Assembly: GCA_017616895.1 (NCBI GenBank)
Contig: JAFZXE010000002.1
Span: forward strand, 41,159 to 105,158
DNA: 64,000 nt
Origin: Bacteroidales bacterium
GTDB taxonomy: Bacteria; Bacteroidota; Bacteroidia; Bacteroidales; P3
Direction: 5' to 3'
In this document: piece by piece, positions 2,406-59,021 of the stretch
Layout: each line of letters opens with the position of its first letter
Numbering within the stretch: position 1 is the first letter of the stretch
Translations under genes and position numbers: made by a program
Notes under the pieces: generated by a model
What the model saw: the letters and a program-made list of their open reading frames with translations, nothing else
Databases searched by the model: none
What the model was told of the DNA's origin: nothing

Positions 2406-3410
2406 TTATTTTATGAAAAGACTTATTGCTATAATTATGGCGAAGAAGCTGATGAGGTTGCGAGCAAGGTACCAGCGTATCATGAACCACTCGATACCAG
2501 CCTCCTGGATTTCCTTCCACTGCGACATAGGCCCCATCCACCAGCGACGTTCGGCCTCCTTCTCGGGGTGGTAGAGAAAATCGCGTATCAGTGTCACAAG
2601 CGTGAAGGCCAAAGGCAAGGTCACAAACGTGAGAAGCGACCACGGGCCGAGATGTCCTATCATAACCGCGACAAACACCAAGAGATATGGGAGGAAACTG
2701 AAAAGGCATGAGAAGGTTAGTAGCAGGCCGCGACGAGGCGACTCTTCAGGAGAGAGCATTACGGCGAGGGTCCTTTTGTTGACACTGATGTCGGGTTGGC
2801 GGTCCATTATGGAGTGGGTGTATAGGATGTTCACCACCAACAATCCTATGGCAGCCGCAATCCACCAGATGTCGGTCGGAAGTTCCCCACACACGGCATA
2901 GCACATGCCTGGCATAAGGAGCGGGCCGAACATCAATCCCGTCAGCAATTCGCCAAGTCCGTGATAGCAAAGCTTGAACGGTGGAGCGGAGTAGAAGAAT
3001 CCCAGGAAGGCACCGGCCAGCGCGAACCAAAGTATTGGCCATCCCCTAAAGTAGAAAACGACAGCGCCACACAGCAAAGCCACCGCTCCAAAGGCTGCCG
3101 CCACCATGAAGGTCTGTTTCAGCGTCGCCTGTCCGTCGGCAAGATACTGCGCTTTGCCGATGCGGGCGCGCATACCAGCACGAGCCAGCTTTTCTCTCGA
3201 CGAGATACCAGCGTTGTGGTAGTCGAAATAGTCGTCAAGCAAGTCGATGGAGAGATGGGCGCAGATGACACCAACCAAAGCGATAACGGCACAAAGCCAA
3301 CTGCCCACGCCTGTGGTGAACGCCACACATATTGCCACAACGGCGGGAATAACGCTCTGTGGCAACGCCTGTGGACGTGCATTCATAAACCAAAAGCCGA
3401 ACTTGCCCAT
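2406..3410 (-). CDS. UbiA-family prenyltransferase (MenA-like)
   Basis: 334 residues with about eight hydrophobic segments. The first aspartate-rich motif is [11 protein letters not shown] (about residues 55-66) and the second is around [13 protein letters not shown] (about 203-215), the two Mg2+/prenyl diphosphate binding sites of UbiA-type intramembrane prenyltransferases. The best guess is a 1,4-dihydroxy-2-naphthoate prenyltransferase of menaquinone synthesis or a close relative, but no other men genes are near, so the acceptor substrate is unproven. It is the first gene of a pair with lepA, and divergent from the FISUMP-like lipoprotein at 3466. Confidence 0.82.
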
Positions 3411-5313: not shown

Positions 5314-6480
5314 TTAATAGCACGCTTTCAGTATTGCCAACACCTCCTCGGTTGTCGGGACGTGGTAGCCGCCTATCTTGTTGACGCTTGCCGCAATGAG
5401 GGGCAACATCTCCTCGGTGCAACCCACTTCACGTAGGCGACGCGGGATTCCGAGTTCGTCGATGAAACGGCTGAGACAGTCGATGCCTTCTGCAGCCACT
5501 TGCTCGTCGCTCTTGCCCGTTGTCTCCACATGCCACACGTTTTTGGCAAACCTCACAAAGCGGTGCAGGCCGTAGGGCATAATGAGCCTGTAGTATGGTA
5601 TCGAGACTATGGCGAGGCCTATGCCGTGCGGACAGTCGCAGTAGGCTCCAACCTGATGTTCTATCTGGTGTACCTCCCAGTCCTGCTTTTTAGAGACGGC
5701 AAGTATTTTGTTCAACCCCATCGTGGCGGCCCACATGATGTTGCTTCGCGCCTCGTAGTCCTGCGGGTTGACGAGGGCCTTGCGGCTGGCCGATATGAGT
5801 GCCAGCATGTCGCCTTCGAGCAGGTAGTCGGAAACACAGTCGTCATCGCCGCCGAAATACTGCTCCATCAGATGGGAGAAGATGTCGAAGATACCGCTCA
5901 CCATCTGCGTCTTGGGTACCGAATAGGTGAATTCGGGATTGAGAATGGAGAACTTCGGGCATGCCACCTCCATTGGGAAGATGTGACCCTCTTTCTTCTT
6001 TAGGGCTTCGTTGGTTATGACCGAGCCTGCGTTCATCTCCGACGCCGTGCCTGTCATGGTGAGGATGGTTCCGACGGGAACCACCTTTGCCGGCACAGGC
6101 AGGTTCTTTATCCAGAAATGATCCCAGGGGTCGTCGTCGCAGTAGGCACTGCAGGCAATGGCTTTCGAGCAGTCGATGACCGAGCCGCCGCCGACAGCGA
6201 GAATCAAATCGACCTTGTTCTCTCGCACCAGTCGGCATCCCTCTAAAACCTGCGTATAGCGCGGGTTGGAGTTGATGCCAGCTAGTTCGCATACGGTCTT
6301 GCCGCATTGCTTCAACGTGTTAATGACGGTGTCGTAAAGTCCGGTTTTCTTGATGGAATTTTTACCATAGACAAGCATCACGTTCTCTCCGTAGAGCGAG
6401 AGCTCGTCGGCGAGGTGGTTCATCGCGGTGCGACCGAAATGGATGCGGGTGGGGTTTTGAAAGGTGAAATCGATATTCAT
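5314..6480 (-). CDS. Iron-containing alcohol dehydrogenase (butanol dehydrogenase/YqhD-like)
   Basis: 388 residues, full length for group III alcohol dehydrogenases. NAD(P) binding motif GGGSVIDCSKAIA (about residues 96-108). The metal site is visible as Asp and His in GIFDIFSHLMEQY and two His in HQIEHQVGAYCDCPHGIGLA. Likely role: NAD(P)H-dependent reduction of aldehydes to alcohols in the cytosol, either in fermentation or aldehyde detoxification. Substrate not predictable. It is a monocistronic gene bracketed on both sides by 7-bp tandem arrays that abut its start and stop codons. Confidence 0.93.
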   Translation of the reverse strand: MNIDFTFQNPTRIHFGRTAMNHLADELSLYGENVMLVYGKNSIKKTGLYDTVINTLKQCGKTVCELAGINSNPRYTQVLEGCRLVRENKVDLILAVGGGSVIDCSKAIACSAYCDDDPWDHFWIKNLPVPAKVVPVGTILTMTGTASEMNAGSVITNEALKKKEGHIFPMEVACPKFSILNPEFTYSVPKTQMVSGIFDIFSHLMEQYFGGDDDCVSDYLLEGDMLALISASRKALVNPQDYEARSNIMWAATMGLNKILAVSKKQDWEVHQIEHQVGAYCDCPHGIGLAIVSIPYYRLIMPYGLHRFVRFAKNVWHVETTGKSDEQVAAEGIDCLSRFIDELGIPRRLREVGCTEEMLPLIAASVNKIGGYHVPTTEEVLAILKACY

Positions 6481-6522
6481 GATTTATGATTAGTGAATAG
6501 TGATTAGTGAATAGTGAATAGA
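6481..6522. repeat. Heptamer tandem array, six degenerate 7-bp units
   Basis: Units GATTTAT, GATTAGT, GAATAGT and variants begin at the base directly before the alcohol dehydrogenase start codon and run away from it. Its sequence is related to the reverse complement of the array at 5278-5312 (ATTAGTG words), so the gene has inverted related arrays at both ends. Confidence 0.8.
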
Positions 6523-7282: not shown

Positions 7283-7326
7283 GACTTTGATATGACTTTA
7301 ATATGACTTTGATATGACTTTGATTT
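7283..7326. repeat. 11-bp tandem array (CTTTG-core), four units
   Basis: GACTTTGATAT repeats start at 7283, 7294, 7305 and 7316, exactly 11 bp apart with one or two changes. It lies between the divergent promoters of the YiiX-like gene and the secreted protein gene. Similar 11-bp CTTYG arrays occur at 15983 and 33156. Confidence 0.85.
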
Positions 7327-7448: not shown

Positions 7449-8078
7449 ATGAAGAAAATCATTCTATCACTGCTGCTTCTTTCAGCCATTACCAGCGTCA
7501 GCGCGCAGGAGTATGTCGTACCCGAAGAGAAGTGGAACTTTGAGGAAATCAGTGGCAACAACTATCACGGATATTCGTTCCACAAGAACTGGAACGTTGA
7601 CTTTATGGTTGAAAACCAAGAAGGTCGCTACACTCCGACCGACATCGACATTGCGAAAGCCGAGAAGCTGATACAGAAGAAAATCGCATACGTGAACCGC
7701 AATCACGAGAACCAAGAGGGCCGCTGCCCGATTATCGACGAGCACATGCACCGCTACGAGCGCCAGTATGTCGGATTTGTCGATTTGAACGGTGCCCACA
7801 TAATCTGGGTAAACTTCCTGTGGGACGACACTCCGCAAGCCCTCCTCAAGAAAGACATCGTGCGCACTACGGGCGGCTGCGGAAGGTATTGGTGCATCAA
7901 GTGCAACCTTGACACCGAGAAAGTCTATGGCTTGGAGGTCAACGAGTCGGGCGACGTGAAATACCTGCCCAGAGATGCCAAACGCCGTCCCCGCATCAGC
8001 AAGCCCAAGAGCGACTACAATCCGCAGCGCATCCGCAAGACAGGCATAATACATACCGATGCAGAGAGGAAGTTTTAA
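7449..8078 (+). CDS. Secreted protein of unknown function
   Basis: 209 residues with a clean signal peptide (MKKIILSLLLLSAITSVSA, cleavage before QEYVV). The mature part has no family I recognise. Notable are a conserved-looking central segment HMHRYERQYVGFVD and a cysteine cluster GGCGRYWCIKC, which could bind a metal or form disulfides, and a basic C-terminus (RRPRISKPKSD). It has no T9SS sorting domain and no lipobox. It has its own promoter and is followed after 2 bp by an octamer array. Confidence 0.7.
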   Translation: MKKIILSLLLLSAITSVSAQEYVVPEEKWNFEEISGNNYHGYSFHKNWNVDFMVENQEGRYTPTDIDIAKAEKLIQKKIAYVNRNHENQEGRCPIIDEHMHRYERQYVGFVDLNGAHIIWVNFLWDDTPQALLKKDIVRTTGGCGRYWCIKCNLDTEKVYGLEVNESGDVKYLPRDAKRRPRISKPKSDYNPQRIRKTGIIHTDAERKF

Positions 8079-8080
8079 TT

Positions 8081-8136
8081 GTGGGAACGCGTTAACGTGT
8101 TAATGCGTTAGTGTGGGAATGTGTTAATGTGTTAGT
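8081..8136. repeat. Octamer tandem array, seven units
   Basis: Seven exact 8-bp steps with words such as GTGTTAAT, GCGTTAGT and GTGGGAAT begin 2 bp after the stop codon of the 7449 gene. This is the reverse complement of the CACTAACG/CAATCCCC family found inside genes at 14520 and 57421. Seven units is not a multiple of three, and this copy is non-coding. Confidence 0.85.
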
Positions 8137-8186
8137 GGCTTACGCAATTAACAGTCAACAAAAAAACACTCAAGCAATCATAGATT

Positions 8187-8665: not shown

Positions 8666-11600
8666 ATGAAAAAACTAGTACTTGTTCTCGCTTTCATCAG
8701 CACCATGCTGCTTGGCAACGCCCAGGTGGTGCGTATTCAGTTTGACGAGTGCGACCGGACACGCGAGTCGGCAATCTCGCAGGCCGTGTCTATCGACGGA
8801 AGACAAGGCTGTCATTATGTCGCCTACGCCAACCCGCAGGAGCTGGCAGCATTCGAGGAACTGGGTATCCCTTATGAAATAGACACCGTCACGAGCGTGG
8901 CAGCAACTAAAGGAACCATTGCGGCAGCCTCCTCGATAGCACAGATGGCTGGTTGGAACAAGTATCCAAACTACAGCACCTTCGTGCAGATGATGCAGAA
9001 TTGGGCGACAACCTATCCCAACCTTTGCAAACTTGACACTGTGGGTTATTCTTACAACAACCACCTGTTGCTTTGCCTTAAGATTTCTGACAACCCATAC
9101 GAGGAGGAGGCAGAGCCCGATTTCCTTTACATGTCGAGTATGCACGGAGACGAAGTGACTGGAATGTACTTCTTGCTGCGCCTCATAGATACCCTGCTCA
9201 CCAGTTATGGCACGGTGGAAGATTTGACACAGATAGTAAACAACACGCAACTATACATCATGCCCGACGCCAACCCCGACGGCACCTACAAGGGTGGCGA
9301 CAACTACATCTGGCAGCCGAACAGCACTTCTGACTATAGTGGACGTTACAATGGCCACGGTATCGACCTGAACAGAACCTATCCCGATCCCTTCGGAGGT
9401 GCAGGTGCTTACGGTTCATCGTCTTATCAGTCGGCGTATGAATCCACGGAAATTGAGAACAAATATATGATTCAGTACATGAACAACCACCATTTTGTGA
9501 TGGCTGGCTGTATGCATGGAGGAGCCGAGATTCTTAATTTCCCATGGGACACATACACATCGTCGCAGAAAGACCTGGCTGATGCCGCATGGTGGACTGC
9601 CATGGGCAACCGTTTCCTGAATACACTGAGGACATATACCGGCGCGGCAAGCACGAGAAACGGCTTCCCGAGAAATATGTACACCGGCGCATTGAGTTCT
9701 GGCTCAACAGCAGGTCAATGCTTCGGAGGCGATTGGTATGCCATCAGCGGTGGCTGGCAGGATTATTCTAATTTCTACAACCATATCCGTGCGTTCACCA
9801 TTGAGGTGTCCAATACCAAATGTCCGTATGTAAATGACACCACCACTGGAAGCGGTTGGTCGAGCACAACCACTCGTGGAGCAAAAACATATTGGTACTA
9901 TCAGAAACAGTCTCTCATCAACATGATAAAAGAGGTCCAGGAAGGTGTCCACGGCTTCGTGGTTGACTCTGTCACCCGTGAGCCCCTGCGAGCCTTTATC
10001 GAAGTTGTTGACCACGACCGCGACAGTTCGCAGATTTATAGCCGTCACGTCCTGGGCGACTACTACCGCCCTATCGCCGACGGCACCTATTCCTTCCGCG
10101 CTTCCTGCCCCGGCTACATCACCAAGACCTACACTAACGTCACTGCCACCTACGGCACCCCGACCGACCTGCTGATTGAACTGGTTCCCGAAGGATGGAC
10201 CCCTGTGGAATACACAATTACAGCCGTGAGCGAGGACAACACCAAAGGCACCGTGACTGGTGGCGGCACCTACCTCGGCGGCCAGATCGCCACCCTCACA
10301 GCCAATGCCAACGCTGGCTACGAGTTTGACCACTGGAACGACAGCAACACCGACAACCCGCGTTCCGTCACCGTCACAGGCGATGCAACCTACACCGCAT
10401 ATTTCCAGACTGCAACCTACACGCTGACCGTGGAGAGCGAAGACAATGAGAAAGGCACGACAACAGGCGGTGGTACATACAACTACGGCGAGACGGTGAG
10501 CATCAGTGCCACTCCCGCCGAGCACTACGAGTTCAGTCAGTGGAGCGATGGCAATACCGACAACCCCCGCACTGTCACCATCACCTCCGACACCACCTAT
10601 ACCGCTCAGTTCTCTGCAATGAACTACACCATCACCGCAGTGCCCGACGACAACACTCACGGTAGTGTGACTGGCGGCGGCAGCTATGCCTACAACACCA
10701 CGGCGACCCTTACCGCAACGCCTGCCGAGCACTATCAGTTTGCTCATTGGAGCGACGGCAACACCGACAACCCGCGCACCGTCACCGTCACAGGCAACGC
10801 CACCTATACCGCCGAGTTCAGCCCGATGAACTACACCATCACCGCTGTGCCCGACAACAACACTCACGGTAGCGTTACAGGTGGCGGCTCATACGCATAC
10901 GGCACCACCGCAACCCTCACCGCCACTCCTGCCACTGGTTATGAATTCACGCAGTGGAACGACGGCAACAACGACAACCCACGCACCGTCACCGTCACAG
11001 GCAACGCCACCTATACCGCCAGCTTCTCAAGCGAGACCTACACCATTACGGTGAACGCTCAGGCTAACGGCACAGCCACCGGCGGCGGTCACTACACCTA
11101 CGGCAGCACCGCGACGCTGACTGCAACCCCTGCCGAAGGCTACCACTTCCTTCAGTGGAATGACGGCAACACCGACAACCCGCGTTCCGTCACCGTCACA
11201 GGCAACGCCACCTATACCGCCTCATTCGAGATTAACAGTTACACCATAACCATCACTTCAGCCAACAATGCTCAGGGTTCGGCCACAGGCAGCGGCACCT
11301 ACACCCACGGCCAGACCGTGACCGCCACCGCCATTGCCAACACTGGCTACATGTTCGACCACTGGAGCAACAACGCTACTACCAACCCCTACCAGTTTAC
11401 CGCAACAGAAAGCACCTCGCTGATAGCCTACTTTGCGGAAATCCCCGCAAACTACTACAACATCACCGTCCTGTCGCAAGACAACACGATGGGCACAGGA
11501 AACGGCACGGGCTCGTATGAGGAAGGCTCGGTAATAAGCATCTCGGCTACTGCCAACACCGGCTATTACTTCACCATGTGGAGCGACGGCAACACTCAGA

Positions 11601-12949
11601 ATCCGCGCACCATAACCGTTACAGGCAACGCAACCTATACCGCACAGTTCGCTGCATACCAGTACCAGCTGACAGTGGTGCCAGACAACGCGCAGCACGG
11701 AACTGCCAGCGGCAGCGGCACCTATAACTACGGCCAGCAGGTGAGCATCTCGGCCACCGCTAACACTGGTTACTACTTCACCCAGTGGAACGACGGCAAC
11801 ACTCAGAACCCGCGCACCGTCACCGTGACAGGCGCAGCCACCTACACCGCTCAGTTTGGCACCGAGAGCTACGCTGTCGAGGTGTTGGTGAACAACAACG
11901 CCTACGGCACACCCAACGGTAGCGGCACCTACAACTATGGCCAGCAGGTGAACATCTCGGCTACTGCCAACACGGGCTACCACTTCGTGCGCTGGAACGA
12001 TGGCAACCTGCAGAACCCACGCACCATCACCGTGACAGGCAATGCCTCTTACACGGCTATTCTCGAAGCCGAGAGCTATACCATTACCGCTGTCCCCGAT
12101 GCCGTAACCCACGGCAGCGTGACAGGTGGCGGCAGCTACCCCTACGGCAGCACTGCCACACTTACGGTAACGGCTTACGCTGGCTACAACTTCGTCCAGT
12201 GGAACGACGGCAACACGCAGAACCCGCGCACTGTCAACGTCACAGGCAACGCCACCTATACCGCTCAGTTCACCTCGGTCGCCTACCAGCTGACCGTTGT
12301 GCCTGACGAAAACAGCCACGGCACCACCACAGGCAGCGGCTCCTACGCCTACGGACAGCAGGTTGAAATCACCGCCACCGCCGCCAACGGCTACCGTTTC
12401 CGTCAGTGGGACGATGGCAACCAGTACTCGATACGCACAGTCACGGTGACTGGCAACACCACCTATACCGCCTACTTCGACGCTATCGAATATGAAGTCG
12501 TTGTACGTCCTAACAACAACATCTGCGGCACCACCACTGGCAGCGGCACCTACAGCTACGGTCAGACCGCCATCGCCACAGCTACTCCGAACGAGGGCTT
12601 TGTGTTCGACCACTGGAGCAACGGCGAGACCGATAACCCATACAGCTTCAGCGTGACGCATAACGTGACCCTCATCGCAGTCTTTGTGTCGGACGGCACT
12701 GGCTCTGGCAACACCGATGGCATCGACGACGTGGAAGGCGAGAACTACAGCGTCTATCCTAACCCCACCAACGGAATGGTCAATGTGAAGATAGACGGCG
12801 AGCCCGCCCCGATACGTATCTACAACATCTACGGACAGCTTCTGCAAGAGCTGCCTGCCGGCGCAACTTCGGTTGATTTGACCAACTACGCCAACGGCAC
12901 CTACATCCTCCGCATAGGCGAGGCAACGACAAAGATTGTGAAATACTAA
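8666..12949 (+). CDS. M14 zinc carboxypeptidase with 12 InlB-like B-repeats and T9SS sorting domain
   Basis: 1427 residues. Signal peptide (cleavage after LLGNA). Peptidase M14 domain about residues 95-430: zinc ligands H160 and E163 (MHGDEVTG), H284 (CMHGGAE) and catalytic E380 (FTIEVS). A carboxypeptidase regulatory-like beta domain follows (about 430-510, GFVVDSVTREPLRAFIEV). Residues about 514-1341 hold 12 divergent InlB B-repeats of about 69 residues (GxVTGGGxYxYG, FxxWxDGNxxNPRTVTVTGNATYTA). The C-terminal type A T9SS domain starts at YSVYPNPTNG and ends TYILRIGEATTKIVKY. It is a secreted, probably surface-attached peptidase acting on peptides or peptidoglycan-type substrates. A paralogue lacking the repeats follows after 1 bp. 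Confidence 0.92.
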   Translation: MKKLVLVLAFISTMLLGNAQVVRIQFDECDRTRESAISQAVSIDGRQGCHYVAYANPQELAAFEELGIPYEIDTVTSVAATKGTIAAASSIAQMAGWNKYPNYSTFVQMMQNWATTYPNLCKLDTVGYSYNNHLLLCLKISDNPYEEEAEPDFLYMSSMHGDEVTGMYFLLRLIDTLLTSYGTVEDLTQIVNNTQLYIMPDANPDGTYKGGDNYIWQPNSTSDYSGRYNGHGIDLNRTYPDPFGGAGAYGSSSYQSAYESTEIENKYMIQYMNNHHFVMAGCMHGGAEILNFPWDTYTSSQKDLADAAWWTAMGNRFLNTLRTYTGAASTRNGFPRNMYTGALSSGSTAGQCFGGDWYAISGGWQDYSNFYNHIRAFTIEVSNTKCPYVNDTTTGSGWSSTTTRGAKTYWYYQKQSLINMIKEVQEGVHGFVVDSVTREPLRAFIEVVDHDRDSSQIYSRHVLGDYYRPIADGTYSFRASCPGYITKTYTNVTATYGTPTDLLIELVPEGWTPVEYTITAVSEDNTKGTVTGGGTYLGGQIATLTANANAGYEFDHWNDSNTDNPRSVTVTGDATYTAYFQTATYTLTVESEDNEKGTTTGGGTYNYGETVSISATPAEHYEFSQWSDGNTDNPRTVTITSDTTYTAQFSAMNYTITAVPDDNTHGSVTGGGSYAYNTTATLTATPAEHYQFAHWSDGNTDNPRTVTVTGNATYTAEFSPMNYTITAVPDNNTHGSVTGGGSYAYGTTATLTATPATGYEFTQWNDGNNDNPRTVTVTGNATYTASFSSETYTITVNAQANGTATGGGHYTYGSTATLTATPAEGYHFLQWNDGNTDNPRSVTVTGNATYTASFEINSYTITITSANNAQGSATGSGTYTHGQTVTATAIANTGYMFDHWSNNATTNPYQFTATESTSLIAYFAEIPANYYNITVLSQDNTMGTGNGTGSYEEGSVISISATANTGYYFTMWSDGNTQNPRTITVTGNATYTAQFAAYQYQLTVVPDNAQHGTASGSGTYNYGQQVSISATANTGYYFTQWNDGNTQNPRTVTVTGAATYTAQFGTESYAVEVLVNNNAYGTPNGSGTYNYGQQVNISATANTGYHFVRWNDGNLQNPRTITVTGNASYTAILEAESYTITAVPDAVTHGSVTGGGSYPYGSTATLTVTAYAGYNFVQWNDGNTQNPRTVNVTGNATYTAQFTSVAYQLTVVPDENSHGTTTGSGSYAYGQQVEITATAANGYRFRQWDDGNQYSIRTVTVTGNTTYTAYFDAIEYEVVVRPNNNICGTTTGSGTYSYGQTAIATATPNEGFVFDHWSNGETDNPYSFSVTHNVTLIAVFVSDGTGSGNTDGIDDVEGENYSVYPNPTNGMVNVKIDGEPAPIRIYNIYGQLLQELPAGATSVDLTNYANGTYILRIGEATTKIVKY
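10205..12691 (+). repeat. Twelve tandem InlB-type B-repeat units (about 207 bp each)
   Basis: Each unit encodes about 69 residues starting Y-x-[IL]-T-V and ending NATYTAxF. At the DNA level several units share near-identical stretches, for example the segment encoding NPRTVTVTGNATYTA near 10775, 10980 and 11190. Units 6 and 12 are the most diverged (NPYQF/NPYSF instead of NPRTV). The repeats form the stalk between the peptidase and the sorting domain. Confidence 0.9.
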
Positions 12950-12950
12950 T

Positions 12951-14771
12951 ATGAAACATCTACTTGTATTTGCTACGTTTATAAGCACCGTAATACTGGG
13001 AAATGCCCAGGTGGTGCGAATACAATTTGAAGAATGTAATCGTTCGAGAGAGGCGGCCATATCAAAGGCCGTCTCTCTTGATTCTCGTAATGGCTGCCTT
13101 TATACCGCCTACGCCAACCCACAGGAGTTGGCGGCCTTCGAGGAGTTGGGCATACCTTACGAGCTGGCACCAATCCAGCAAGACAACACCAAAGGCACAA
13201 TAGCCGCCGCACAGAGCGTTGCCGAGATGGAAGGCTGGAACATGTACCCCAGCTACAGCACCTACCTGACCATGATGCAGCAGTGGGCGACAAACTATCC
13301 CAACCTCTGCAAACTCGACACCGTAGGCTATTCCTACAACAACCACCTCCTGCTTTGCATGAAGATTTCCGACAACCCCACAGAGACCGAAGCCGAGCCA
13401 GAGTTCTTCTATATGTCGAGCATGCACGGCGACGAGGTGACGGGTTTCTACTTCCTCCTGCGCATGATTGACACGTTGCTGACCAGCTATGGCACCGTCG
13501 AAGACCTGACACAATTGGTCAACACCACGCAGATATACATCATGCCCGACGCCAACCCCGATGGCACCTACAAAGGAGGCGACAACTACGTCTGGCAGCC
13601 GAACATGACCTGGGATTACAGCGGACGCTACAACGGCAACGGCGAAGACCTCAACCGAACCTATCCCGACCCCTTCAACACCCGCAGGTCATACGATGTC
13701 CAGTACAACGCCACCGAGCAGGAAAACAAGGCGATGATACAGTACATGAACGCACACCATTTCGTCATGGCAGCCTGTATGCACGGCGGAGCCGAGATTC
13801 TCAACTTCCCCTGGGACAGCTATACCTCCTCGCAGAAGCCTGTGGCCGATGCCGCTTGGTGGACGGCGGTGGGCAACCGCTTTGTGGCAACCCTGCGTGA
13901 GCATACAGGCGCGGCGAGCAACAGCAGCAGTACTTTCCCGAACAACCTGTACCGCACCGAAAGAATCAACGGCAGCTACACCGAGCAGTGCTTCGGCGGC
14001 GACTGGTACGCCATAAGCGGCGGCTGGCAGGACTATGCGAACTGGTACAACCACATACGCGCCTTCACCATCGAGGTGTCGCGCGACAAATGTCCAGCTG
14101 TGTCAGGCACCTGGGGATCCAAAAACTACTGGAGCTATCAGCGCGAACCGCTTATCAATATAATTAAAGAGGTGCACGAAGGAGTGCACGGCTTTGTGGT
14201 CGATTCTCTCACACGCGAACCGCTGAAAGCCTTCATACAGGTGCTTGACCACGACTGCGACAGCTCGCAGATATACAGCCGTAGCGGATTGGGCGACTAC
14301 TACCGTCCCATCGCCAACGGCACCTATTCGTTCCGCGCCTCATGCCCCGGCTACATAACCAAGACCTACACAGGCGTCACCGTCTCCTACGGCAACCCCA
14401 CCGACCTGCTGATAGAACTCATCCCAGGCGAAGACACCCTCTCCATACAAACAATCGAGACTTCAACCAACCAAGCATTCACCCTCTATCCCAACCCCAC
14501 CACAGGCATAGTGCATATACAATCCCCCACTAACCCACTAACGCAATCCCCCACTAACGCAATTACGCAATCACACAATCACACAATCAAACAATCCCCC
14601 ACTAACGCACTAACGCAATTACGCAATAACACAATCAAAATCTACTCTCTTTACGGTCAGTTGCTGCAGGAGTTGCCGGCTGGCACCACCGAATTTGACC
14701 TCAGCGCATATACCAAAGGCACCTATATCCTCCGTGTCGGCTCGCAGTCGATAAAGATTATCAAGTTCTGA
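12951..14771 (+). CDS. M14 zinc carboxypeptidase, tandem paralogue, with octamer insertion in its T9SS sorting domain
   Basis: 606 residues. It closely follows the upstream paralogue through residue about 495: signal peptide (ILGNA), zinc ligands H159 and E162 (MHGDEVTG), H278 (CMHGGAE), catalytic E375 (FTIEVS) and the regulatory-like domain GFVVDSLTREPLKAF. It has no B-repeats and passes straight to the T9SS type A domain (FTLYPNPTTG ... TYILRVGSQSIKIIKF). That domain is split by about 40 residues (524-563) encoded by a 15-unit octamer array. ATG 12951 lies 1 bp after the previous stop and the gene overlaps the next start by 1 bp (TGATG), so the three genes form a coupled operon. Confidence 0.92.
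   Translation: MKHLLVFATFISTVILGNAQVVRIQFEECNRSREAAISKAVSLDSRNGCLYTAYANPQELAAFEELGIPYELAPIQQDNTKGTIAAAQSVAEMEGWNMYPSYSTYLTMMQQWATNYPNLCKLDTVGYSYNNHLLLCMKISDNPTETEAEPEFFYMSSMHGDEVTGFYFLLRMIDTLLTSYGTVEDLTQLVNTTQIYIMPDANPDGTYKGGDNYVWQPNMTWDYSGRYNGNGEDLNRTYPDPFNTRRSYDVQYNATEQENKAMIQYMNAHHFVMAACMHGGAEILNFPWDSYTSSQKPVADAAWWTAVGNRFVATLREHTGAASNSSSTFPNNLYRTERINGSYTEQCFGGDWYAISGGWQDYANWYNHIRAFTIEVSRDKCPAVSGTWGSKNYWSYQREPLINIIKEVHEGVHGFVVDSLTREPLKAFIQVLDHDCDSSQIYSRSGLGDYYRPIANGTYSFRASCPGYITKTYTGVTVSYGNPTDLLIELIPGEDTLSIQTIETSTNQAFTLYPNPTTGIVHIQSPTNPLTQSPTNAITQSHNHTIKQSPTNALTQLRNNTIKIYSLYGQLLQELPAGTTEFDLSAYTKGTYILRVGSQSIKIIKF
14520..14639 (+). repeat. Octamer tandem array inside a coding sequence, 15 units
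   Basis: Fifteen consecutive 8-mers of the types CAATCCCC, CACTAACG, CAATTACG and CAATCACA. 120 bp keeps the frame, and because 24 bp is eight codons the protein shows five 8-residue repeats: QSPTNPLT, QSPTNAIT, QSHNHTIK, QSPTNALT, QLRNNTIK. It sits within the sorting domain between GIVHI and IKIYSLYG; the upstream paralogue has only about nine residues at this place. Confidence 0.9.
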
Positions 14772-15940: not shown

Positions 15941-15982
15941 ATAGACAGCTGACGTATATCTATCATAGATATTTCCAGCGAC

Positions 15983-16015
15983 CCTTCGGTGATCCTTCGG
16001 CGATCCTTCGGCGAA
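15983..16015. repeat. 11-bp tandem array, three units
   Basis: CCTTCGGCGAT-type units begin at 15983, 15994 and 16005. It lies in the gap between the glycosyltransferase and the ECF sigma operon. The rest of this 242-bp gap holds a 12-bp palindrome TGTAATATTACA (16046-16057) and the promoter box at 16127. Confidence 0.8.
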
Positions 16016-33076: not shown

Positions 33077-33155
33077 TCCACTCCCAAAACCACTAAGCCA
33101 AACCAAACCTTCCCACCCAAACCAGCTAAGCCTCACCCCAAAAAACCTCCAGTGA

Positions 33156-33193
33156 CTTTGCAGCGGCTTTGCAGTGGCTTTGCAGTGGCTTTG
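33156..33193. repeat. 11-bp tandem array (CTTTGCAGTGG), three full units and a partial fourth
   Basis: CTTTG words begin at 33156, 33167, 33178 and 33189, 11 bp apart. It lies 80 bp after rluD and 50 bp before the rplM promoter. The preceding part of this 356-bp gap is a C/A-rich low-complexity stretch. Confidence 0.85.
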
Positions 33194-54229: not shown

Positions 54230-54230
54230 A

Positions 54231-54270
54231 ATTATCATAGATTTAGTAAAATTATCATAGATTTAGTAAA
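54231..54270. repeat. 20-bp perfect tandem duplication
   Basis: ATTATCATAGATTTAGTAAA twice in a row (54231-54250, 54251-54270), between the 54255 gene's end and the GLUG protein's start codon. The duplicated unit includes the stop codon of the upstream gene. Confidence 0.9.
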
Positions 54271-54925: not shown

Positions 54926-54951
54926 CGATTGCAAAAATACTAAAATATTTT

Positions 54952-54991
54952 GATTGCGTTATTGCGGGAATGTGGGAATGTGTTAGTTGCT
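54952..54991. repeat. Octamer tandem array, five units
   Basis: 8-mers GATTGCGT, TATTGCGG, GAATGTGG, GAATGTGT, TAGTTGCT, same family as 8081 and, in reverse, 14520. Non-coding, just upstream of the candidate RNA promoter. Confidence 0.75.
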
Positions 54992-55148: not shown

Positions 55149-55247
55149 TTGCCTATGAATTAGAAAGGTTTTGCCCTATTCTTGCCTATGAATTAGAAAG
55201 ATTTTACCCCATTCTTGCCTATGAATTAGAAAATTTTTATACTTTTA
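55149..55247. repeat. Three 33-bp direct repeats upstream of the second DUF4143 ATPase
   Basis: TTGCCTATGAATTAGAAA occurs identically at 55149, 55182 and 55215, exactly 33 bp apart. The third copy overlaps the promoter region (TTG near -33, -7-like TACTTTTA at 55240-55247). Same period and placement as the array at 49211, although the repeated sequence differs. Confidence 0.9.
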
Positions 55248-56691: not shown

Positions 56692-58971
56692 TTACAAGAA
56701 CTTCCTGGTCACCGACCCGTCGCAAGCCATTATGCCTTTCGGCTCTCCGGCGTAGAGAAGGTGTCCGCCGTTGGCTCCGCCGCCGGGGCCGAGCTCGACG
56801 AGGTAGTCGGCGTTCTTCATCACGTCGAGGCTGTGCTCGATAAGTATCAGCGTATTGCCTCGGTCGGTCATCTCGTCGAACAGGGCCATAAGACGTTGGA
56901 TGTCGTCTAGATGCAGGCCGTCGGTGGGTTCGTCGATGATATACAGTTCTCCTTTGCGGTAGAGGTTGTCTGCAAGCTTGATACGTTGCAACTCTCCGCC
57001 GCTCAGCGTGGTCATCGACTGGTTCATGTGCAGGTATCCAAGCCCCACTTTCGACAATGCCTCCAGCTGTGGCTGGAACGGCTGTCCGTCGAAAAACTCC
57101 CTTGCCTCGTCAACACTCATATCCATCACCTCGGCGATAGTCTTCCCGCGGTATTTGTGGCTCAGTGCCTCGTCGTTATATCGGGTTCCGTGACACACCT
57201 CGCACTCTGTCTCGATGGATTCCATAAAGGCCATATCCGACACGATTATCCCCTTGCCGTTGCAAGCAGGGCAGGCACCAGCACTGTTGAAGGAGAAGAG
57301 CTGCATGGATTTGCCGCTGGCTTTGGCGAAGAGTTTTCTTATGGTGTCGGAGATGTTGAGATAGGTGGCGGGAGTGGAGCGGAGGTTGATGCCGATGTTG
57401 TGCTGGCCGATGAAGATGGGAATGATTGTGTGATTGCGTGATTGTGTGAATGTTTGAATGTTTGAGTGTGACAGACTGCTAATAAAATAATCCATCAGTG
57501 AACTTTTGCCCGAACCGGCCACGCCTGCAATAACCGTCATCACTCCTTTCGGAATCTGTAGCGTGAGGTCTTTGAGGTTATGCAGATTAGCACGTTCTAT
57601 CTCGTACCAACCCTGCGGCTTTCGCACTTGCGGCTTGAACTGTGTCTGATGGCGCAGCATACGGCCGGTCGTGGTGTCCGACTTGAGCAGTCCGTCGTAG
57701 TCGCCTTCGTAGGTTATCGTTCCTCCGTGATTTCCCGCACCAGGCCCCATATCCACTATGTGGTCGGCCATCGATATTATCTCTCTATGGTGCTCCACTA
57801 TCAGCACAGTGTTGCCGTGATCGCGCAGGTGGAGCAGCGAACGTTTCAGCCGTGCTATGTCTTGCGGATGCAGTCCTACGCTAGGCTCGTCGAGGACGTA
57901 GGCCATATCGGTCAGCGGCGAGTTGATATATCGTGCAATCTTTATTCGTTGCGCCTCGCCACCGGAGAGCGTGCTGGTACTGCGTCCGAGCGAGAGATAT
58001 CCGAGACCGATATCGACCAATGCCTGTAGCCTTTTTGACAGCTCCCGCTTGATATCGACCGCCAGCGGATGCTCGATGCTCTGTACGTAAGCGAGGGTGT
58101 CGTCGATGGACATCTCCATCACATCGACTAGGCTTTTGCCGTCAATCTTGCAGCTGCGCACCCGCTCGTTGAGACGTGTGCCGCCACAGTCGGGGCAGGT
58201 ACCCATGGTGAGCATGGGGTTTAGCACTGAGGCATGAAGGAGTCCTTCCTCCGAGTTGATGATGCTGCGGTACATGCGGGGAATGAGTCCTTCGTATTTG
58301 GCGCTTTTGGGCCAGTTGGATGGCGGATTCTTGAGTTTAATCTGGGGCGAGTTGAGGAAGAGGTCGAGCTCTTCGGGTGTATAGTCTTTGATTTTCTTGT
58401 CGAGGTCGAAGAGGCCGCTGTAGGCGTAACGTATCCAGCGCCAGCCGCCTTTGCCGAAGGCGATGTAGTGGATAGTGTCTTCGTCGTTGAGCGACTTGTC
58501 GAAATCCACCAGCTTGTGGATGTCCAACTCACGGATTTCACCCAGTCCTGCGCATCGCGGACAACTGCCGCTGGGGTGGTTGAACGAGAAGGTGTCGCTA
58601 TATCCGATAAATGGCTTGCCCACACGGGAAAAGAGCAGTCGCAACAACGCATAGATGTCGGTGTATGTCGCCACCGTCGAGCGGCTGTTGCTGGCAGGCT
58701 TCTTCTGGTCGATGACGATGGTGACGGGCATCTGCTCGATGCGTTCCACCTTCGGACGTCCGTATTTGGGAAGATACTGCTGTACAAAACTGGGGAAGGT
58801 CTCGTTCAGTTCACGTCGGCTTTCGGCTGCGATGGTGTCCAGGCAAAGTGAACTCTTGCCCGACCCTGAGATGCCCGTGAAGACTGTTATTTTATGCTTC
58901 GGTATGCACAGCGACACTTCCTTGAGGTTGTTCTCGCTGGCACGGATGATATTGATATACTCTTCAATCAT
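56692..58971 (-). CDS. UvrA-like ABC ATPase (class II, UvrA2-type), with octamer insertion
   Basis: 759 residues from ATG 58971 (GTG 58980 would add three). Two ABC ATPase halves: Walker A GISGSGKSSL (about 33) and GVAGSGKSSL (about 486); signatures LSGGEAQRIKIA and LSGGELQRIKLA; Walker B YVLDEPSVGLHPQD and YIIDEPTDGLHLDD. Zinc modules CPRCAGLGE, CPDCGGTRL, and CPACNGKG with CEVCHGTR are present. At about 760 residues it lacks the UvrB-binding domain of true UvrA (about 940), so it is a UvrA2-type protein linked to DNA-damage or drug tolerance. Residues 502-517 are encoded by a 6-unit octamer array just after the second Walker A helix. Confidence 0.88.
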   Translation of the reverse strand: MIEEYINIIRASENNLKEVSLCIPKHKITVFTGISGSGKSSLCLDTIAAESRRELNETFPSFVQQYLPKYGRPKVERIEQMPVTIVIDQKKPASNSRSTVATYTDIYALLRLLFSRVGKPFIGYSDTFSFNHPSGSCPRCAGLGEIRELDIHKLVDFDKSLNDEDTIHYIAFGKGGWRWIRYAYSGLFDLDKKIKDYTPEELDLFLNSPQIKLKNPPSNWPKSAKYEGLIPRMYRSIINSEEGLLHASVLNPMLTMGTCPDCGGTRLNERVRSCKIDGKSLVDVMEMSIDDTLAYVQSIEHPLAVDIKRELSKRLQALVDIGLGYLSLGRSTSTLSGGEAQRIKIARYINSPLTDMAYVLDEPSVGLHPQDIARLKRSLLHLRDHGNTVLIVEHHREIISMADHIVDMGPGAGNHGGTITYEGDYDGLLKSDTTTGRMLRHQTQFKPQVRKPQGWYEIERANLHNLKDLTLQIPKGVMTVIAGVAGSGKSSLMDYFISSLSHSNIQTFTQSRNHTIIPIFIGQHNIGINLRSTPATYLNISDTIRKLFAKASGKSMQLFSFNSAGACPACNGKGIIVSDMAFMESIETECEVCHGTRYNDEALSHKYRGKTIAEVMDMSVDEAREFFDGQPFQPQLEALSKVGLGYLHMNQSMTTLSGGELQRIKLADNLYRKGELYIIDEPTDGLHLDDIQRLMALFDEMTDRGNTLILIEHSLDVMKNADYLVELGPGGGANGGHLLYAGEPKGIMACDGSVTRKFL
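57421..57468 (-). repeat. Octamer tandem array inside the UvrA2-like gene, six units
   Basis: On the coding strand: CACTCAAA, CATTCAAA, CATTCACA, CAATCACG, CAATCACA, CAATCATT. 48 bp, 16 codons, frame kept, read as HSNIQTFT then QSRNHTII (residues 502-517). Same orientation and phase as the array in the carboxypeptidase gene. Confidence 0.9.
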
Positions 58972-59021
58972 AACTGACACACTCTGAAAATATTACGCTT
59001 ATGCTGTTTCCCATACACCGT

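Follow-up and report, generated by a model that had tools for sequence, protein, structure and literature searches.

The Rickettsia palindromic elements (RPEs) were reportedly described by Ogata and colleagues in 2000. RPEs are 105–146 bp long, contain long stem-loops and terminal inverted repeats, and are found between genes as well as in frame in many unrelated conserved protein genes, where they are apparently tolerated; Rickettsia is the best-known case of repeats inserted in frame into many conserved genes (PMC2229807). Direct repeats of the heptamer TAACTGA are reported from Beggiatoaceae, Cyanobacteria and five Bacteroidetes (PMC4679880). They are mostly intergenic, many lying a few nucleotides 5′ of a start codon and some inside open reading frames (ORFs); forward copies place stops in all frames, and the ORF copies are mostly at protein ends (PMC4679880). 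The BrickBuilt MITE of Porphyromonas gingivalis is built from a 23-bp unit with a leader, a tail and small inverted-repeat ends, and is always intergenic, 49–591 nt from genes (PMC4596501).

The window analyzed here is a stretch of 64,000 nucleotides from a Bacteroidales bacterium (genome G000; other G numbers denote genomes of relatives, L numbers stretches that were read and C numbers contigs). It contains an array of 15 octamers inside a gene for an M14 zinc carboxypeptidase, which is probably a coding member of a family of degenerate octamers dispersed in this genus. Like the RPEs, this family is found both between genes and in frame in unrelated genes (13 tracts in 11 genes and 86 other loci). 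Different from the RPEs, it consists of 8-bp tandem units and belongs to a different bacterial group. A search of positions 14420–14760 revealed no inverted repeats and the RNA folding of the M14 array is ordinary (z 0.67); the array is not an RPE because it lacks the palindrome with terminal inverted repeats. Judged by this comparison, it most likely works like an RPE without being one.

The octamers share with the TAACTGA repeats the character of short tandem words that are mostly intergenic, in many cases close to a start codon, and sometimes inside ORFs. TAACTGA is one fixed heptamer, whereas the octamers (period 8, CAHTHMCR-type units) are degenerate and also occupy internal loops of conserved enzymes. 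Unlike the TAACTGA repeats, octamer arrays also lie against stop codons in reverse orientation. As with BrickBuilt, a dispersed minisatellite-type repeat is located between genes of a Bacteroidales bacterium; its unit is 8 rather than 23 nt, a gene edge is often 0–10 nt away, and some arrays lie inside genes. Among the top-ranked titles and abstract openings of a literature search, no description of this octamer family was found, and none of the papers retrieved with the octamer letters concerns bacteria by its title.

The array in the second M14 carboxypeptidase

Fifteen head-to-tail 8-mers extend over exactly positions 14520–14639 and are translated in frame into five 8-residue repeats (QSPTNPLT QSPTNAIT QSHNHTIK QSPTNALT QLRNNTIK), as an earlier sequence-only reading of this DNA had described. 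TRF found the array at periods 8, 24 and 48. The period of 48 reflects an in-frame higher-order duplication in which units 4–9 and 10–15 are paired with 89% matches (score 157). Our octamer detector (threshold score ≥28) called four arrays in the window, whereas 10 first-order Markov shuffles of its sequence gave none; the M14 array is therefore not explained by chance. It contains only unit types that place no TAA in frame.

Table 1. Coordinates of the features discussed, on the window unless a stretch (L number) is given.
Feature	Position	Strand	Basis
Octamer array, 15 units, in frame, residues 524–563 of second M14 peptidase	14520..14639	+	units, translation, TRF
Copy 1 of 48-bp duplication (6 units, 16 residues)	14544..14591	+	TRF period 48
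Copy 2 of 48-bp duplication	14592..14639	+	TRF period 48
Host gene: M14 zinc carboxypeptidase, 606 aa, T9SS type A sorting domain	12951..14771	+	open ORF, Pfam
Sorting domain, portion 5′ of array (TLYPNPTTG to GIVHI)	14484..14519	+	Pfam, alignment
Sorting domain, portion 3′ of array (IYSLYGQLL...KIIKF)	14640..14768	+	alignment
Paralogue, uninterrupted sorting domain (loop comparison)	8666..12949	+	ORF, Pfam, alignment
UvrA-like ATPase gene	56692..58980	-	TIGR00630 711.7 bits, below cut-off 729.8
Coding array, 6 units, in UvrA-like ATPase gene	57421..57468	-	detector, reading frame
Array of octamer family, overlaps and continues past stop codon of ORF 7449–8078	8074..8137	-	detector
Short intergenic array of octamer family	54949..54988	-	detector
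Dispersed leader	L037 about 3002-3028	+	
Dispersed leader	L039 about 3067-3093	-	
Dispersed leader	L242 about 11960-11986	-	

Pfam assigned Peptidase_M14 and Por_Secre_tail domains to the host ORF, with a CarboxypepD_reg match slightly under cut-off. The C-terminal match to the T9SS type A sorting domain is above the curated cut-offs for both models, with 23.3 bits against TIGR04183 (cut-off 23; residues 554–605 only) and 31.2 bits against PF18962 (cut-off 27; residues 512–604). The latter alignment runs across the insert and covers both halves of the domain. Different from the usual type A domain, the loop after GIVHI is formed in this host by 40 octamer-encoded residues. When 26 sorting domains are aligned, the array is seen to occupy the loop from the end of GIVHI to the start of IYSLYG, two flanks that are probably strands; the loop varies by several residues among the other aligned domains.

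The adjacent paralogue has 8 residues between GMVNV and IRIYNIYG. The sequence-only reading had taken this undisturbed domain, with about nine residues counted, to make the insertion point visible, which holds apart from the count; the paralogue serves as a stand-in and the original loop length is approximate, since sorting-domain loops vary. No clear orthologue of the second M14 gene, which would have offered a direct empty-site comparison, was found among 60 relatives. Compared with the paralogue and with the G014 homologue, the host has in each case a dN/dS ratio of about 0.11, at dS values of 1.6–2.1 that are near saturation, and its catalytic part is under purifying selection. The paralogue also has 12 InlB B-repeat matches (PF18998), with none reported in the array-bearing copy.

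Genome-wide there are 53 PF18962 matches, 47 of them over cut-off; among the array matches listed, 2 of the 53 overlap an array. Thirty of the 53, the M14 one not among them, were read directly; in one of these, on C8, arrays lie within the match or adjoin it. This LRR protein carries an octamer insert in the same sorting-domain loop as the M14 host and a second one just before VFPNP. A GDSL protein on C12 has octamer-like residues directly before LYPNP. A type IX secretion system is likely present in the organism, because a SprA_N match of 542 bits was found in the genome.

Dispersal and coding copies of the octamer family

The family unit is roughly CAHTHMCR with a period of 8, and the units are degenerate rather than identical. 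A three-unit pattern searched with no mismatch gave 121 forward and 128 reverse matches in G000 (overlapping ones counted). It also matched in 42 of 58 other genomes of the same genus, at 0 to 275 matches per genome, and, among 40 genomes belonging to other families in the order, in one; the reversed-pattern control was not clean, as the unit read backwards resembles the unit and the same arrays match. The exception among the 40, G097, has 8 matches in total, mostly of CATTACCG or CATTACCA units. When a related pattern was run against a genome collection, at least 51 of the matches listed (at least 80) came from Bacteroidales/Bacteroidetes bacterium entries, many of them from ruminant samples as judged by isolate names, and at least 29 from other groups.

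Searching G000 with a sequence model built on the array produced 155 matches. Reading of 532,948 of its 2,613,366 bases (0.53 of 2.61 Mb) yielded 99 array loci, in stretches chosen around matches rather than sampled at random, so that array densities are not scalable; genes were called with a simple caller of our own, which leaves start codons uncertain. The genome-wide search for the octamer family that the sequence-only reading had suggested reveals a dispersed family, with both the coding tracts and the far more numerous other loci. Rfam at gathering thresholds gave no matches in L037, L039 and L278. The window contains further tandem repeats: a period-7 degenerate array of TGATTAG/TGAATAG at 6480–6521, a second word family of similar style; three different 11-bp arrays (7283–7324, 15978–16014 and 33150–33193); a 33-bp repeat at 55149–55237 (2.7 copies); and a 20-bp repeat at 54230–54270 (2 copies, 100% matches).

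All the 13 coding tracts in G000 are sense (CA-rich strand) and in frame, and encode peptides of the type LTQSHNNAITQS; being in frame and stop-free is partly built in, because ORF-based calling classes frame-breaking arrays as intergenic and would overlook frameshifted copies. Hosts recognised with Pfam are, among others, a shikimate kinase, a GAF-MsrA fusion, an ABC-F ATPase, a sigma-54 activator and a flavodoxin with an apparent lipoprotein signal. Further hosts are a 4Fe-4S protein (closest to a GlpC-like NCBIfam model, at a score below cut-off), the LRR protein and the GDSL hydrolase, both with sorting domains, the two genes in the window, and a gene on C1 with a weak match only. Two of the tracts are weak, namely C12:38516 (score 29.5, partly native sorting-domain sequence) and C8:113642 (31.9).

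It had been proposed from the sequence that 15 units, a multiple of three, preserve the frame. This is correct for the M14 array. As a general rule it is rejected, since the unit number is divisible by three in 2 of the 13 coding tracts (15 and 6). Unit counts in other genes that are not multiples of three had been named in advance as evidence against the proposal, and to that extent it falls. The reading frame is kept by the total insert length, not by unit number. Unit choice follows the frame: where the phase would make TAA a stop, 0 of 29 units contain it, against 34 of 60 at the other coding phases (Fisher P 1.8e-8 within coding tracts), the latter share being near the 443 of 669 in non-coding arrays (Fisher P 0.16). 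Outside G000, 2 of 9 coding arrays are antisense, so the sense-only arrangement is not general. Among 13 array loci examined in other species, the motif picked a frame in 5 and 8 gave no result; an insert is present in 4 of the 5 (L386, L387, L391 and L405) and L380 is uninformative. In-frame inserts in other species of the genus lie in genes that we take to be PhzF-like, BtuF-like and glycoside-hydrolase-like. In G109, a gene presumably of the glycoside-hydrolase-like kind contains at L428:2071–2335 four blocks of antisense octamers (ECVNALMRQCVSGDTE type) and, after them, octamers in the sense orientation, with the frame kept throughout.

Three other host genes could be compared across species; relatives have short loops, and G000 and related species have 11–46 extra residues. 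In the GAF-MsrA protein, for which the motif was found in 14 of 31 loci scanned, the loop from SEIVVP to the LDID strand has 8 residues in 11 orthologues and is filled to 41 in G000, 19 in G014 and 23 in G041. For shikimate kinase the motif was found in 25 of 30 loci scanned; the loop before TGGG is 15 residues long in 21 of them and 16 and 27 in two more, while G000 has 31 and G014 has 61. The UvrA-like loop has 11 residues in 10 of 17 loci, 13 in two and 20 in three, and reaches 25 in G000 and 48 in G014; octamers are present at this site in G002 too, and the other two 20-residue loops are unlike octamers. At the shared sites, both the inserted residues and the lengths differ between species. 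The G014 inserts in the shikimate kinase and the UvrA-like gene have a common leader with an identical 27-base core, which was not found at either site in G000. Either the shared sites were hit in parallel or the copies were homogenised within each genome. A dispersed leader of ∼75–90 nt (TTCTGCGATTAAGG...GCCGAACCGAAGCAGAATGACGCCGAA and variants) directly precedes octamer-like sequence in two species (Table 1).

Placement of arrays at gene edges

The arrays are polar. Among the 86 loci outside genes, ACTAAC follows the first base of the first unit in 38 and of the last unit in 1, and CAATC begins the last unit in 32 and the first unit in 2. In 48 of the 84 array loci outside genes with both neighbours known, no more than 10 nt separate the CAATC end from a gene edge, against 16.9 expected by even placement in the gap (P 3.5e-19); for the opposite end the count is 7 of 84. 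In tandem gaps the CAATC end is at the start codon in 22 of 42 cases (11.7 expected; start codons depend on our simple caller) and, for antisense arrays, at the stop codon in 17 of 22 (3.3 expected), a sharper excess that is independent of start choice. It is near stop codons in 6 of 10 convergent gaps (1.4 expected). Consistently, four other genomes (G053, G018, G047 and G014) have the CAATC end at the edge in 29 of 53 loci, with 9.4 expected; G041 and G109 have coding arrays only. Opposite-strand pairs of arrays within 120 nt are head to head in 14 of 14 cases, with no tail-to-tail pair, because of the same polarity.

Stop-adjacent arrays might mark truncated genes. This is rejected for five loci, since the array at 8074–8137 lies directly after the stop codon in both G000 and G014 (same orientation, different units), with the stop of ORF 7449–8078 at the same residue in G014, and since C1:208278, C17:56138, C17:57412 and C26:45795 are within 3 nt of or overlap a stop that follows a nearly complete sorting domain. 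It was also considered that the arrays are arms of hairpin elements. When 60 nt of 5′ flank are included, most G000 arrays fold no better than shuffles (median z -0.5, n=83; 14 below -2), and 11 of the 14 head-to-head pairs have a fold z below -2. The 5′ flanks of G000 arrays (e.g., L049 and L278) show a recurring hairpin-like GTGCGTGCCCGCACAGGGC and the words TTTTAAG and GTCAGC. The absence of the GT-rich sense near start codons would be accounted for by decoy start codons that it contains; these give no account of the proximity to stop codons where gaps are convergent. That arrays abut start and stop codons with a fixed polarity is unexpected and may point to how they arise.

Origin of the array

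We consider it probable that the M14 array is a tolerated in-frame repeat insertion rather than a regulatory switch. The array would have entered the gene after the two M14 paralogues separated and then grown by slippage or unequal exchange. It may have survived because the peptide read from its sense strand is polar, compatible with a loop and rich in N, Q, S, T and H, with out-of-frame or stop-bearing versions presumably removed by selection. More generally, repeat DNA would enter or grow in genes now and then and survive if it is in frame, stop-free and in a loop. The proposal of the sequence-only reading that a dispersing or expanding repeat is housed within the sorting domain agrees with these data, as the array is in frame and at the loop shown by the paralogue. 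Its further suggestion that the array tunes export or switches the C-terminus finds no support, and a secretion-specific role is rejected, because this repeat also stands in frame in genes of enzyme families that are not secreted (shikimate kinase, UvrA-like ATPase, GAF-MsrA and ABC-F), whose members are likely cytoplasmic as judged by family.

A phase-variation locus, in which slippage adds or removes octamers and the resulting frame change turns the sorting domain, and with it export or anchoring, off and on, would fit the 8-bp unit, a single-unit change of which would cause a frameshift, as well as the insert lengths that differ between species at shared sites; frameshifted copies would also escape ORF-based calling. 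Yet degenerate units should lower slippage, the hosts include housekeeping families besides exported proteins, and the species differences are in frame at the three shared sites examined (one genome per species), which makes such a switch improbable. Somewhat less improbable, though still unlikely, is a selected functional loop, such as a linker or attachment surface, that happens to consist of octamers. The same loop is filled in two sorting-domain proteins and related species carry inserts at the same sites, but the residues and lengths differ between species there, similar peptides are present in unrelated folds, and an insert is carried by 2 of the 53 sorting-domain matches, among the array matches listed. 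An assembly artefact is hardly credible: the genome is a draft (31 contigs, completeness 88.24, contamination 0.54) and short repeats can be misassembled, but the same sites are filled in separate genomes and unit choice depends on frame.

Beyond tolerated insertion, a more tentative and rather doubtful possibility is that the octamer arrays are a self-propagating repeat without a palindrome or known enzyme, with fixed polarity to gene edges, which repeatedly enters reading frames as loops and is homogenised in each genome including its coding copies (concerted evolution). The homogenisation would account for the common leader of the G014 inserts at two shared sites where the G000 inserts are without it. 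The data describe a tandem, non-palindromic repeat that enters conserved genes in frame in several species of one genus. With orthologous loops available in both filled and unfilled form, it can be traced how protein loops arise from repeat DNA, grow and are lost.
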